Shown: positions 19,790-25,609 of the stretch, piece after piece
Layout: every line of letters starts with the position of its first letter
Numbering within the stretch: position 1 is the stretch's first letter
From: Nitrosomonas sp.
Lineage (GTDB): Bacteria > Pseudomonadota > Gammaproteobacteria > Burkholderiales > Nitrosomonadaceae
NCBI GenBank assembly: GCA_017984435.1
Contig: JAGNZK010000030.1
Span: 1-38,023, forward strand
Length of the DNA stretch: 38,023 nt
Direction of reading: 5' to 3'
Notes under the pieces: model-generated
What the model was told of the DNA's origin: nothing
Seen by the model: only the letters and a program-made list of their open reading frames with translations
The model's database searches: none
Translations under genes and position numbers: made by a program

Positions 19790-22700
19790 ATGTCATCTCG
19801 CATCATATTTATTAATTCAAACGTAGCCGACTATCAAAGGCTGATTCCACAGTTGCCCTCTGATTCAGAAATCGTTGTGTTGAATGCAGATCAAGATGGT
19901 GTGAGCCAGATACTTGCTGCACTGCGAGGCCAAATGGATTTGGATGCGATGGACATTATTTCGCATGGCATGCCGGGTACGTTGACGTTGGGTTCGGGTG
20001 AATTAAACAGTGCGAATGTGGCGGATTATGCGGAGCAATTAGCGCAGATTGGCAGGCATCTGGGGCATAACGGCGATATTCTGCTCTATGGTTGTGAGGT
20101 AGCTCAAGGAAAGACCGGCCAAGTATTTGTGGAGCAACTGGCCCGATTCAGCGGAGTGAATGTTGCCGCTTCCACCACGCTGACTGGTGCTGCTGACTTG
20201 GGCGGGAACTGGATGCTGGAAGCGCGCGTAGGATCGATCAAATCGACAACATTACAATTATCCTATGGTGGTGTCTTGGCAGTTTTTACAGGTACGTCAG
20301 ATGATGATGTACTGACTGGAGGTGCTGATGATGACACATTTACAGGGGATGGCGGCAATGACACGTTGATAGGCGGTGCGGGTAACGATATCGCTATTTT
20401 TTCAGGTAATCAGAACGATTATGCGTTTCTACTCAACTCAAGCGGTCAGATCACTGTACGTGATCTGGACACCGCCAATGGAGATGAAGGTACGGATATT
20501 CTTTCCAGTATTGAAATTGCCCGTTTTGCTGATGGCGATATCGAAATCGCCCAGAAGGGTAATGAGTTTAGGGTCAATACCTTTACCGCCGGTGATCAAT
20601 CCGATCCATCAATCACTGCATTGACTAATGGCGGTTTTGTGGTGACTTGGGTGTCTACCGGTCAGGATGGCGATCTCCATGGGGTTTATGCGCAGCGCTA
20701 TGATGTCAATGGCGTGCCCCAAGGCAGTGAATTCAGGGTTAATACTTATACCACCAATTCGCAACAAACCGCTTCCATCACCGCCCTGAGCAATGGCGGT
20801 TTTGTCGTGAGCTGGATGTCCAGTGGGCAGGATGGTAGTGGTTATGGCATTTACGCCCAGCGTTATGATGTGGATGGTGTGCCCCAAGGTAGTGAATTCA
20901 GGGTCAATACTTATACCACCAGCTCGCAACAAAACGCTTCAGTCACTGCCTTGAGCAGCGGTGGCTTTGTGGTGAGCTGGCATTCTAACGGTCAGGATGG
21001 TAGCGGGCTGGGTATTTATGCGCAGCGTTATGACGTAAATGGAACAGCTCAGGGCAGTGAATTCAAGGTCAATACTTATACGGCTGGTTCGCAACAAAAC
21101 GCTTCGGTCACTGCGCTGAGCAATGGTGGATTTGTGGTGAGTTGGGTATCTAACGGTCAGGATGGCAGCGGCTTGGGTGTTTATGTCCAGCGTTATGATG
21201 CGGATGGCGTATCCCAAGGTGGTGAATTCAGGGTCAATACTTATACAGCCGGCGATCAAACTGATCCATCAATCACCGCCCTGAATACGGGTGGATTTGT
21301 GGTGACCTGGGAGTCTTCCGGGCAGGACGGTAGTGGTTATGGTATTTATGCCCAGCGTTATAATGCAAATGGTGTGCCTCAGGGCAGTGAATTCAGGGTC
21401 AATACTTATGCAACTAGCACGCAGAGCGATCCATCAATCACCGCTCTGACCAATGGTGGATTTGTGGTGACTTGGATGTCCAATGGTCAGGATGGCAGTG
21501 GTTACGGCATTTATGCTCAATGCTACGATGCGAATGGCGTGCTCCAAGGCATTGAATTCAAAGTTAATGCGTATTTAACCGGAACGCAAAGTGACCCATC
21601 AATCACTGCTCTGTCCGATGGTGGATTTGTGGTGAGTTGGGAGTCTTTGAGTCAGGATGGCAGTGGTAATGGTATCTACGCTCAACGCTATGATGCTGAA
21701 GGAAGAATAGCTGGGACCCTAGTGCTGACGGGCAGTGCTAATGGTGATCATCTCAATGTGACAGCAATATTGGATCCCTTAGTAAATCTGCCAGTTAATC
21801 TAATGGGTATGGCGGGGAATGATTCTTTACAAGGTGGATTCGGTAACGATACGCTGAATGGCGGAGCCGATAATGATTTACTGTATGGAGGAGGGGGTAG
21901 CGATACACTGATAGGTGGTGATGGCGATGATGTGGCAGTCTATTCGGGTAACCGATCTGATTATGCAGTCTCACTCAACCCAACCGGTCGAATCGTTGTG
22001 AGCGATACGAATACATCTAATGGTGATGAGGGTGTTGATACACTCGCTGAGTCCATGATATTACGTTTTGCGGATGGTGATTTTACAACCAATATCGTGT
22101 CCAGGGGGGATGAGTTTAGAGTGAATACTTATGCGCCCAACTCACAGCAAACTCCTTCAATGACGGCATTGGCTGATGGTGGATTTGTCGTGACCTGGGA
22201 ATCTTCCGGTCAGGATGGCAGTGGCTTAGGTATTTATGCTCAGCGTTATGATGCGAGCGGGGTGGCTCAGGGCAATGAATTTAAGGTCAATACTTATACG
22301 ACTTTTGATCAGTATCACTCTTCAGTTACTGCGCTAAGCAATGGCGGTTTTGTGGTGAGTTGGGCATCGCTTCAGGATGGTAGTGGCTTGGGTATTTATG
22401 CGCAACGCTATGATGCGGGTGGAATAGCTCAGAGCAGTGAATTTAAAGTGAATACTTATACAACGATTGATCAATATGATGCTTCAATCACTGCATTGAC
22501 TGGTGGCGGATTTGTCGTGACCTGGTCATCTACCGGTCAAGATAACAGTGGCTTGGGTATTTATGCGCAACGCTATGATGTGAATGGAGTAGCCCAGGGT
22601 AGTGAGTTTAAGGTGAATACTTACACAACGATTGATCAGTATGACTCCTCAATTACCACCTTGACCAACAATGGTGGGTTTGTGGTGACCTGGACTTCTT

Positions 22701-24745
22701 CCGGTCAGGATGGTAACGGTACAGGCATTTACGCTCAGCGCTATAATACGAATGGGATAGCACAAGGTGCTGAGTTTAAAGTAAATACCTTTATAACCGG
22801 CGATCAAACTAACGCTTCCATTATCGCGCTCAACGGGGGTGGATTTGTAGTGACGTGGACATCTTCGGGCCAGGATGGTAGCGGTGCGGGCATTTATGCG
22901 CAGCGCTATAATGCGCTTGGTGTGGCTCAGAATGGCGAATTTAAGGTGAATACTTTCATAACCGGTGGTCAAACTAATCCATCGATCACCGCGCTAACGA
23001 ATGGTGGGTTTGTGGTGACGTGGGAATCTTCCGGTCAAGATGGCAGTGGTTCGGGTATTTATGCCCAACGCTATGCTGCGAATGGCGTTGCTCAGGGCGG
23101 TGAATTCAAAGTAAATACTTTTACAGTCGGCGATCAAACTAACCCTTCAATCACTGGCTTGAACGATGGTGGGTTTGTAGTGAGCTGGAGTTCAGGTAAT
23201 CAGGATAGCAGCGGTCGAGGTGTTTTTGCACAACGCTATGATGCCAATGGAGTAGCTGTTGAAACGGTGATTGAATTAACTCCAGTTTCTGCTGGAATCA
23301 ATCATGCGCCCACTCTGATCGCTCCTTTAGTTGATCAGGCAGTACAATACGGGACGATTGATTGGAGTTACGATGCAAGTGTAGCTTTCAATGATGAAGA
23401 TATTCTGGATTTCCTGAGTTACAGTATCACTTTAGTCAATGGTAATCCCGTGCCAGTCTGGATGCAGGTGGATCCAGCTTCCGGATTAATAACAGGATCG
23501 CCGGATCTTGAAGACCGTGGCACTTATTCGCTGACTGTGAAAGCCACTGACTCACATGGATTAAGTGTCAGTGCGCCTTTAGCGGTTGCAGCGACAACAT
23601 TTAATGCAGGTCAATTACTGGTAGGTACGAACGGGAACGATACTTTTTCCGGTATATCGTCTAATAATACAGTAAGTTATTTTTATGCAGCCGCTCCAAT
23701 AGCCGTTTCTCTGCTTATCACCAATCAGCAGAACACCGGTGGTGCAGGACTGGATACACTGACTAACATCAATAATCTGATCGGCAGTGACTATAACGAT
23801 AGCTTGACAGGTAATACCCAGAATAATGTTCTGGACGGGGGGGGGGGTAACGACACACTCAACGGAGGGGTTGGAACAGATACCCTTATCGGTGAATTGG
23901 GCAATGATATTTTTATTGTGAACAGTGCGGGCGACGTCGTTGTAGAGTATTTCAATGAAGGTATTGATAAGGTCAGCAGCAGCGTGACATATACTTTGCC
24001 AGTTAATGTGGAGAATCTCACGCTGACAGGCTCTCAGGCGATTAATGGCACAGGTAATGATCTGGCTAACACCATTACTGGGAATGCAGCTAACAATATA
24101 CTCAGTGGAGGTGCCGGTAACGACATAATCAGTGGATTTCTTGGTGCAGATACTTTGCTTGGTGGGTTGGGTAATGATATCTATACGGTTGATAATGTGA
24201 ATGATGTGATTATTGAGGATCTCAATGAAGGCACTGATAAAGTCAACAGCAGTGTGACATACACGTTGTCAGCCAATGTGGAGGATCTTACATTGACGGG
24301 TTCACTGGCGATCAATGGCACAGGTAATGATCTGGCTAATAAGGTTATTGGAAATACAGGCAATAATCAGTTGGATGGAGGGGCCGGTAATGATGTTCTT
24401 GACGGTCGTACAGGTACCAACATTTTAACAGGTGGAACGGGTAACGATCTTTTCAAGTTTACTACAACAGGCCATATTGACACGATTACTGATTTTAACG
24501 TGGCAAATGACACTATTCAGTTGGAGAATTCTGTATTTACGGCATTAACGGCGACGGGCACATTGGCGGCCAGCAGATTCAGAATTGGTACACAAGCAGT
24601 GGATGCCGATGATTTCATCATTTACGACAGTGTGGCGGGTAAATTGCTATATGATGCAGACGGCAATGGTGCAGGGGCTACGGTACAAATTGCTACAATA
24701 GGCATTGGATTGAGCATGACCAATGCGGATATTGTGGTGATCTAG
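19790..24745 (+). CDS. Giant DUF4347-RTX repeat protein, probable type I-secreted surface protein
   Basis: 1651 residues; GGGAG precedes ATG 19790. Order: DUF4347 (about 4-160) with DIISHGMPG and LLYGCEVAQG (His59, Cys102); RTX nonapeptides (about 167-200); a short module ending RFADGD; seven 55-residue repeats (259-643); a second RTX plus RFADGD module (about 670-770); seven more 55-residue repeats (775-1159); an Ig/cadherin-like domain (about 1171-1268); C-terminal RTX repeats (about 1340-1560) with two copies of an ~84-residue VTYTL...LTLTGS unit; and a C-terminus KLLYDADGNGAG typical of RTX proteins secreted by type I systems. No signal peptide. No transporter genes lie nearby. An 11-G run encodes Gly1350-1353. 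Function unknown; adhesin or biofilm matrix protein is a guess. Confidence 0.9.
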   Translation: MSSRIIFINSNVADYQRLIPQLPSDSEIVVLNADQDGVSQILAALRGQMDLDAMDIISHGMPGTLTLGSGELNSANVADYAEQLAQIGRHLGHNGDILLYGCEVAQGKTGQVFVEQLARFSGVNVAASTTLTGAADLGGNWMLEARVGSIKSTTLQLSYGGVLAVFTGTSDDDVLTGGADDDTFTGDGGNDTLIGGAGNDIAIFSGNQNDYAFLLNSSGQITVRDLDTANGDEGTDILSSIEIARFADGDIEIAQKGNEFRVNTFTAGDQSDPSITALTNGGFVVTWVSTGQDGDLHGVYAQRYDVNGVPQGSEFRVNTYTTNSQQTASITALSNGGFVVSWMSSGQDGSGYGIYAQRYDVDGVPQGSEFRVNTYTTSSQQNASVTALSSGGFVVSWHSNGQDGSGLGIYAQRYDVNGTAQGSEFKVNTYTAGSQQNASVTALSNGGFVVSWVSNGQDGSGLGVYVQRYDADGVSQGGEFRVNTYTAGDQTDPSITALNTGGFVVTWESSGQDGSGYGIYAQRYNANGVPQGSEFRVNTYATSTQSDPSITALTNGGFVVTWMSNGQDGSGYGIYAQCYDANGVLQGIEFKVNAYLTGTQSDPSITALSDGGFVVSWESLSQDGSGNGIYAQRYDAEGRIAGTLVLTGSANGDHLNVTAILDPLVNLPVNLMGMAGNDSLQGGFGNDTLNGGADNDLLYGGGGSDTLIGGDGDDVAVYSGNRSDYAVSLNPTGRIVVSDTNTSNGDEGVDTLAESMILRFADGDFTTNIVSRGDEFRVNTYAPNSQQTPSMTALADGGFVVTWESSGQDGSGLGIYAQRYDASGVAQGNEFKVNTYTTFDQYHSSVTALSNGGFVVSWASLQDGSGLGIYAQRYDAGGIAQSSEFKVNTYTTIDQYDASITALTGGGFVVTWSSTGQDNSGLGIYAQRYDVNGVAQGSEFKVNTYTTIDQYDSSITTLTNNGGFVVTWTSSGQDGNGTGIYAQRYNTNGIAQGAEFKVNTFITGDQTNASIIALNGGGFVVTWTSSGQDGSGAGIYAQRYNALGVAQNGEFKVNTFITGGQTNPSITALTNGGFVVTWESSGQDGSGSGIYAQRYAANGVAQGGEFKVNTFTVGDQTNPSITGLNDGGFVVSWSSGNQDSSGRGVFAQRYDANGVAVETVIELTPVSAGINHAPTLIAPLVDQAVQYGTIDWSYDASVAFNDEDILDFLSYSITLVNGNPVPVWMQVDPASGLITGSPDLEDRGTYSLTVKATDSHGLSVSAPLAVAATTFNAGQLLVGTNGNDTFSGISSNNTVSYFYAAAPIAVSLLITNQQNTGGAGLDTLTNINNLIGSDYNDSLTGNTQNNVLDGGGGNDTLNGGVGTDTLIGELGNDIFIVNSAGDVVVEYFNEGIDKVSSSVTYTLPVNVENLTLTGSQAINGTGNDLANTITGNAANNILSGGAGNDIISGFLGADTLLGGLGNDIYTVDNVNDVIIEDLNEGTDKVNSSVTYTLSANVEDLTLTGSLAINGTGNDLANKVIGNTGNNQLDGGAGNDVLDGRTGTNILTGGTGNDLFKFTTTGHIDTITDFNVANDTIQLENSVFTALTATGTLAASRFRIGTQAVDADDFIIYDSVAGKLLYDADGNGAGATVQIATIGIGLSMTNADIVVI
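20564..21718 (+). repeat. First block of seven 165-bp coding repeats
   Basis: Seven tandem units of exactly 165 bp (55 residues), each starting EF(R/K)VN and containing GGFVV(T/S)W, GQDGSG and GIYAQRYD. The last unit is the most diverged (SQDGSGNG, EGRIAGT). High similarity between units makes them recombination-prone and hard to assemble from short reads. Confidence 0.95.
22112..23266 (+). repeat. Second block of seven ~165-bp coding repeats
   Basis: Seven tandem units homologous to the first block. Unit 2 is one residue shorter (WASLQDGSG) and unit 4 one longer (LTNNGGFVV), the total again being 385 residues. Units of this block resemble each other (EFKVNTYTTIDQYD in units 3 and 4) more than those of block one. 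Confidence 0.95.
23837..23847 (+). repeat. 11-G homopolymer inside the RTX coding sequence
   Basis: Eleven consecutive G encode Gly1350-1353 of an otherwise standard RTX nonapeptide (LDGGGGNDTLNGG). In the present length the frame is open. One extra G gives an immediate TAA after the run; one fewer gives a TGA at 23919-23921. Confidence 0.93.
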
Positions 24746-24898: not shown

Positions 24899-25609
24899 AT
24901 GTCTGAAGCAGCAGAAATAATTCAAAGTCCCTGCAACAGTGCAGACTTAAGCGCACAAGCTATCATAGAGTTGAATGACTGTTACCATCCGCTCAATTTT
25001 GAAGCGCGTTTGCACAGAATTTACACGGATTTTCGGCCTGAAAAGATTATGGTGACGTCATCTTTTGCGGCGACTTCTGCCTATTTCTTGCATATTATTT
25101 CCCACATTCGGCCGGAACAGATTATTTTCTTTATTAATACCGGTTTTCATTTTCCGGAAACCTTGATGTATCGCGATTATCTGATCAAGCTTTACCATCT
25201 GAAAGTTGAAGATCTGAAAGCGGATGACTATCAGCATCAATACAGCAAAAAAGAAAAGCTGTATGTAACGGATCCGGATTTTTGCTGCACAATTAACAAG
25301 GTCAATCCACTAGAAGCGATCAAACCCAATTACGATATTTGGATCTCAAGCCTGATGAACTGGCAGACGGATCACCGCGCCGGTTTGGATATTTTTGAGG
25401 AGCGCCGTGGGATTATCAAGTTTAATCCCATGATTGATGTGACGCGTGAAGAGCGCGACGCATATATTCGCGAACATGATTTGCCGTTTCATCCGCTAGT
25501 GGAAGGCGGCTATTCTTCCATTGGTTGTACGCATTGTACTGTGAAAGGCGAAGGCCGCAGCGGTCGCTGGATGGGAAAACCTAAAACCGAGTGCGGCCTG
25601 CATCTTTAA
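24899..25609 (+). CDS. cysH: Adenylylsulfate (APS/PAPS) reductase
   Basis: 236 residues. Reduces activated sulfate to sulfite in assimilatory sulfur metabolism. It carries the four cluster cysteines of the iron-sulfur APS-reductase type: a CC pair (Cys129-130, DFCCTINKVNP) and CxxC (Cys210, Cys213, GCTHCTVKGEGRSGRW), plus the catalytic Cys232 in TECGLH at the C-terminus. The nucleotide loop is TSSFAATSAYFLH, slightly different from the usual SSFGAES. The [4Fe-4S] motif suggests APS and not PAPS as substrate. Its stop overlaps the stop of the convergent iminopeptidase gene. No other cys genes are in the window. Confidence 0.94.
   Translation: MSEAAEIIQSPCNSADLSAQAIIELNDCYHPLNFEARLHRIYTDFRPEKIMVTSSFAATSAYFLHIISHIRPEQIIFFINTGFHFPETLMYRDYLIKLYHLKVEDLKADDYQHQYSKKEKLYVTDPDFCCTINKVNPLEAIKPNYDIWISSLMNWQTDHRAGLDIFEERRGIIKFNPMIDVTREERDAYIREHDLPFHPLVEGGYSSIGCTHCTVKGEGRSGRWMGKPKTECGLHL

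Follow-up and report, generated by a model that had tools for sequence, protein, structure and literature searches.

Poly-G tracts that lie within coding sequences are known from Campylobacter and Neisseria; in the excerpts available of these reports (PMC6321876, PMC3786947), a long poly-G tract sits within an open reading frame (ORF) and a one-base change in its length truncates the product. One of these excerpts (PMC6321876) also explains how such tracts may be born, given that three glycines can become 9 Gs by drift. In Bordetella, the genotyping of nine tracts across 90 strains showed that some of them were stable, according to the accessible part of that study (PMC1891110). For nitrifiers, no paper on phase variation is apparent among the search results from open-licence PMC text, judged by titles and the starts of abstracts.

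In this work we analyzed a stretch of 38,023 bases of Nitrosomonas DNA (the window), which carries a run of eleven Gs (G11) in a gene for an RTX repeat protein and resembles the Campylobacter and Neisseria loci in both of the features mentioned above. The tract was compared with the same site in relatives, with the G/C runs of 86 genomes of the genus, and with RTX genes of the genus that are broken at such runs. From these analyses we conclude that G11 is a candidate for phase variation rather than a demonstrated on/off switch.

Results

The RTX gene and its product

The gene occupies positions 19790..24745 of the forward strand and encodes a protein of the DUF4347 type, as judged from the ORF translation and Pfam; with 1651 residues, the term giant used for it in the first-pass annotation is overstated. 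The DUF4347 domain (PF14252, E 8e-52) covers residues 5-154 (19802..20251, forward strand), an Ig-like He_PIG domain (PF05345, E 3.2e-10) covers residues 1193-1266 (23366..23587, forward strand), and the Gly/Asp-rich RTX nonapeptide repeats (PF00353, E 3.4e-38) form nine stretches. Between the Pfam domains, two blocks of repeats of about 55 residues of the GGFVVTW type were recognized by eye, and no family model named them. The NCBIfam scan reported no secretion-target domain at the C-terminus. The NCBIfam toxin and protease models match the protein through its repeats and far under their cut-offs; for instance, RTX_toxin reaches 115.9 bits where the cut-off is 1000, and its best-matched stretch lies in the repeat region. 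As far as its sequence goes, nothing marks the product as a toxin.

The genome that contains the window (G000) is a draft of 2.8 Mb in 85 contigs, in which the protein has 19 matches, itself included. One paralog of 1716 residues (L112) has the same architecture, and the domain order is found both in this paralog and in the ortholog of a related genome (G092, see below); the C-terminal end is likewise common to the ortholog and to paralogs in G000 such as L112. A search of named genomes, from which the window's own genome was possibly excluded, gave 41 loci with 25-62% identity, and Nitrosomonas sp. Nm33 was the only one titled as Nitrosomonas. A PrtD-type ABC exporter was found above cut-off by profile search elsewhere in G000 (G000:C11:20856-22484), and no type I exporter was seen among the ten window proteins scanned with Pfam. 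G000 also has a MutS-family gene, and the loss of mismatch repair as a cause of the tract was rejected because of it.

The G11 tract and its effect on the reading frame

The tract is located at 23837..23847 of the forward strand, 82% along the RTX gene, and is the sole run of at least 7 Gs or Cs in the window. Its first G is codon position 1 of the ORF, so that it encodes the four glycines (residues 1350-1353) of the RTX motif LDGGGGND, and with eleven Gs, as assembled, the gene is open. If the tract had 12 Gs, a TAA at 23848..23850 would come into frame and the product would have 1353 residues; with 10 Gs, a TGA at 23919..23921 would end the product at 1376 residues, the last two dozen of them out of frame (both stops on the forward strand, determined in silico). 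After either change the stretch 23849..24742 (forward strand) would be read out of frame, that is, four RTX stretches, which pass the search threshold by themselves, and the conserved C-terminal end, presumably the secretion region. Therefore, the eleven in-frame Gs, the two stops and the loss of about 300 native residues either way, all of them proposed in the first-pass annotation, hold up.

Two features of contingency genes are thus present: the in-frame mononucleotide tract is above the length commonly regarded as mutable (cut-offs of at least 7 and of more than 8 bases), and a one-base change switches off, in silico, the full product. When the synonymous codons of the RTX gene were shuffled, a run of at least 11 appeared in 9 of 4000 shuffles; within this gene, G11 exceeds the chance expectation.

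The same site in relatives

G092 carries a syntenic ortholog, whose product is 69% identical over residues 1-1507. Downstream of the RTX gene, the window has a cysH-like gene for PAPS reductase (24899..25609, forward strand, Pfam), followed by genes for a hydrolase, a patatin and TerC; the four neighbours are conserved beside the G092 gene with 86-89% identity, which supports the orthology. The ortholog is intact (1556 residues) and its site reads GAT GGG GGG GCT GGT AAT GAC, a G7 with no indel at the site. It is 95 residues shorter (L369:1501-6171), and the gap in the alignment, which starts shortly 3' of the tract site, looks as if a single RTX module had been lost or gained.

Among the other homologs, 24 of 30 loci yielded a copy that aligns with the site, some of these copies coming from neighbouring repeats rather than from the exact site; none has a run of more than 5 Gs, the codons are mixed, and two of the 24 are gapped there. 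The motif DGGGGND occurs at 16 sites in 10 of the 86 genomes of the genus, and only in the window does an unbroken run of Gs pass through the glycine codons. Ten other loci of G000 that match the RTX protein contain one G7 (in frame), one C6, and in eight cases no G/C run of at least 6. With one genome per species, neither G092 nor the 24 homolog copies showed a tract kept at the same site with differences in length, and from these comparisons G11 looks lineage-specific. GGTGGC-type codons in relatives, without a change in length, which the first-pass annotation had set against its own reading, are largely what was found (GGG GGG GCT GGT in the ortholog and mixed codons in the homologs). The idea of a conserved switch was rejected on the G7 of the ortholog and the mixed codons in the aligned copies of the other homologs.

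Long G/C runs in the genus

Runs of at least 9 Gs or Cs are present in all 86 genomes. G000 has five, and a second one, in an NADH-dehydrogenase-like gene (G000:C1:35711-35721), is also 11 bases long. The count of nine-base G/C windows has a median of 7 in the genus, is 10 in G000, and reaches at least 10 in 30 of the 86 genomes; runs of exactly 10 are found at 104 places in 53 genomes, and those of at least 11 at 52 places in 37 genomes. Hence G11 is not exceptional for its genome or its genus.

The proportion of runs extending by at least one further base was 0.16-0.24 at lengths 1-5 in 223 kb of genus DNA sampled without regard to tracts, and 0.46 and 0.30 at lengths 6 and 7, where runs are few; from length 9 up it was about 0.33-0.62, the window's own run being left out of this long class. 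By rough arithmetic, with 258 Mb assumed in all, runs of at least 11 are some five-fold above the trend of the short runs. Slippage would produce a heavier tail of this kind, as would assembly error, and together with the shuffle result the excess leaves room for selection or for a strong slippage bias.

Besides the run of the window, the tract set of the genus comprised 151 runs of 10-17, after four longer runs were dropped. For 99 of the 151, the surrounding frame stays open over 180 or more codons, a figure that includes frames stopping soon after the tract. Ten tract-bearing ORFs, picked by look and not at random, all pass a curated family cut-off, and nine of them look like housekeeping genes with runs of 9-11. 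In-frame tracts were seen in the genes for RadA, DnaK, the succinate-CoA ligase beta subunit (SucC), FtsH, TrpB, an ArgD-family transaminase, YebC and MurD, as well as in that for valine-tRNA ligase (ValS), whose ORF is cut by the end of the locus; the runs of MurD and valine-tRNA ligase are 9 long. RTX-type proteins, recognized by motif count, hold 5 of the 152 runs of 10-17 (window included), and housekeeping genes hold such runs too. A glycine-rich protein with two motifs (L216) was taken as a chance match and not counted as RTX-type.

Several other tracts were noticed in this survey. The tenth of the picked ORFs encodes a PrtD-type secretion ATPase of genome G009 (L190:1618-3399, 770 bits), in which an in-frame G12 lies just 5' of the LSGGQ signature. 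Three genomes have an in-frame G10 at seemingly the same place of one protein family, unbroken in all of them (L340, L344, L348), and in three a gene that appears TatA-like by eye carries long C runs in its 3' tail (L183, L185, L099). At or just before the start of a homologous gene, G053 and G060 have G/C runs of 9 (L094) and 14 (L191, the same as L106), that is, of different length at a homologous site. Finally, the runs at four loci (L179, L187, L188, L217) are 17 to 82 Gs long, and those of L187 and L188 lie at contig ends; all four are probably assembly artefacts.

Short and long tracts in RTX motifs, and genes broken at tracts

Across the genus, the pattern of 7 Gs closely followed by GGN-AAY-GAY matched 41 windows, spread over 22 of the 86 genomes, and the reversed control matched 6. 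The 41 windows represent 29 sites, from which three that are not RTX (L224, L226, L357) and one cut by a contig end (L242) were removed, leaving 25. In the RTX-motif tracts of 7-8 Gs the frame was kept in all 22 evaluable cases. There were three RTX-motif tracts of 10-12 Gs: that of the window, which is open, and two broken just after the tract, a G10 in the isolate Nm33 and a G12 in G064. In Nm33 (G090; NZ_FNPJ01000053.1, L343:4049-6480), an RTX ORF of 433 residues stops within a few codons after the G10; 3' of this ORF lies, in another frame, an RTX ORF of 381 residues with the C-terminus of the family. In G064 (L195/L360), an ORF of 526 residues ends soon past the G12 and is followed by an RTX ORF of 200 residues. 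Alleles in the OFF state thus occur in the RTX gene family, assembly error being possible in both. The remaining RTX-type carriers of long runs are open, one with a G10 (L351) and another with a G11 in a domain ahead of the RTX C-terminus (L204/L361). A homolog of the window gene lies immediately downstream of the split gene of Nm33, and this split gene offers a test case in an isolate.

Frames were also found broken in other contexts. In G008, a further homolog is split at a G7 in its GGFVVTW repeats, and in G016 an RTX gene (L113) is split where no G/C run of at least 6 exists. A peptidase M3 gene of G008 (L355:722-2831) is split at a G10, with the Pfam profile running over 1-206 and then 202-456 across the break; the cause is either an assembly error or slippage, here in a housekeeping gene. 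A GDPD gene (L314) and two GNAT-like genes homologous to each other (L271, L312) are probably split as well, and none of the three is RTX. The two GNAT-like genes (L312:1554-2239 and L271:1051-1831, minus strand) belong to different genomes and share the position of a G10, and in both of them the frame upstream of it differs from that downstream; a weak match to FeeM was obtained for L312 only (E 0.0064). They are possibly better contingency candidates than the RTX gene. A frame that ends at a G10 in L327 was set aside as a split gene, given that the downstream frame looks like a gene in its own right.

Frames were broken in 2 of the 5 RTX-type cases and in 4 of the 96 remaining open-frame cases (p 0.027, one-sided). 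These counts are small and post hoc, and the non-RTX breaks may be undercounted, since the screen for them was restricted to frames ending close to a tract. If the proven case alone is counted as a non-RTX break, the p value is 0.006; without the breaks of G064 and G008 the proportions are 1 of 4 and 3 of 95 (p 0.15). This excess is a hint of a different treatment of RTX tracts.

The search beyond the genus

In the wider order, 8 Gs before N-AAY-GAY were found in 16 of 399 genomes, against 5 matches for the reversed control. Only two of the 16 loci have RTX repeats, the window and L132; the other 14 are not RTX, and two of these are FtsH-like by eye. G tracts in RTX motifs as an order-wide habit were consequently rejected. 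L132 belongs to G319, outside the genus, and has an in-frame G8 in an RTX motif (L132:1508-1515), in a frame of 1005 residues with 11 GGxGxD motifs.

Discussion

The reading that we favour, with a probability of roughly 0.65, is that G11 is a recent, chance-born hotspot of slippage, incidental to a dispensable exoprotein gene that has paralogs, rather than a dedicated switch maintained by selection. The glycine codons of the RTX motif GG-x-G-N-D would drift to GGG and so give rise to a recent, lineage-specific homopolymer. The codon that is GCT in the ortholog reads GGG in the window, where it joins the Gs into a run of 11, and the simplest path would be that GCT became GGG beside an existing G7. 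At 11 Gs, replication slippage would be expected to lengthen or shorten the tract by one G occasionally, and the slipped product would end about 300 residues early, probably unable to be secreted for want of the last RTX repeats and of the presumed type I secretion end. Since two Nitrosomonas RTX genes are broken at such tracts, truncating slippage at long RTX tracts, and with it the removal of the C-terminal end of the protein, is credible.

The first-pass annotation had proposed more than this, namely a candidate phase-variable switch. As a true contingency locus, the tract would toggle the secretion of the RTX protein by slippage, and selection for a diverse cell surface or biofilm matrix would maintain it. 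Its frame arithmetic stands, G11 is within the length range of phase-variable poly-G tracts (cut-off of at least 7 in the available excerpt of PMC6321876), and the breaks at G10 in Nm33 and at G12 in G064, both 5' of the C-terminal ends, the split at G7 in the G008 homolog and the frame kept in 22 of 22 short RTX-motif tracts are all consistent with it. We nonetheless consider a selected switch rather unlikely: the ortholog has a G7, no aligned copy in the homologs has a long tract, comparable runs are ordinary in housekeeping genes, where switching makes little sense, and G000 retains a MutS-family gene. A position 82% along the gene is also odd for a switch, given that the excerpted text of PMC2831843 favours the 5' end, although from poly-A/T tracts. 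A broader version, in which the Nitrosomonas RTX genes form an ON/OFF contingency system with tracts arising anew in different paralogs and at no one conserved site, appears to us similarly doubtful; under it, the OFF alleles of Nm33 and G064 and the ON allele of the window would be snapshots of one system.

The same broken genes could instead record slow decay, in which redundant RTX paralogs tolerate and fix frame breaks at G tracts, as a practically irreversible step to a pseudogene. The 19 matches to the protein in G000, the RTX gene of G016 split where there is no such run, and the peptidase M3 gene split at a G10 in G008 agree with this explanation; the window gene and its ortholog are, however, intact over 1651 and 1556 codons, which suggests continuing selection, and we regard decay as improbable. 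Even less probable is an artefact of sequencing or assembly, the real tract being shorter, longer or interrupted: G000 is a draft in 85 contigs and the longest runs of some relatives have the look of artefacts, but a wrong count would hardly leave a frame of 1651 codons that ends in a conserved C-terminus.

An incidental hotspot would mean that glycine-rich repeat genes breed slippage-prone tracts through codon drift, and the exoprotein gene that carries G11 is best read as fast-evolving. The survey of the genus provides a null for any poly-G reading in Nitrosomonas, where the presence of a tract alone is weak evidence of a switch. Were the switch true, it would be a case of phase variation in a nitrifier, a free-living ammonia oxidiser.

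Among the Nitrosomonas DUF4347/RTX exoproteins, the window protein, its G092 ortholog and the paralog L112 have their domain order and C-terminus in common, and in the aligned copies of the site the runs of the homologs never exceed 7 Gs. For the Campylobacter and Neisseria loci, the excerpts consulted record variation between isolates or phase states, whereas the long tract of the window is absent from its ortholog and from the copies of the site aligned in homologs. The Bordetella study (PMC1891110, as far as its text was available) likewise found C/G tracts of at least 9 by genome scan; its genotyping covered 90 strains, as against one genome per species here. One of those tracts seemed unstable only above 8 bases, which fits the contrast between the tracts of 7-8 and of 10-12 Gs in the RTX motifs of Nitrosomonas.
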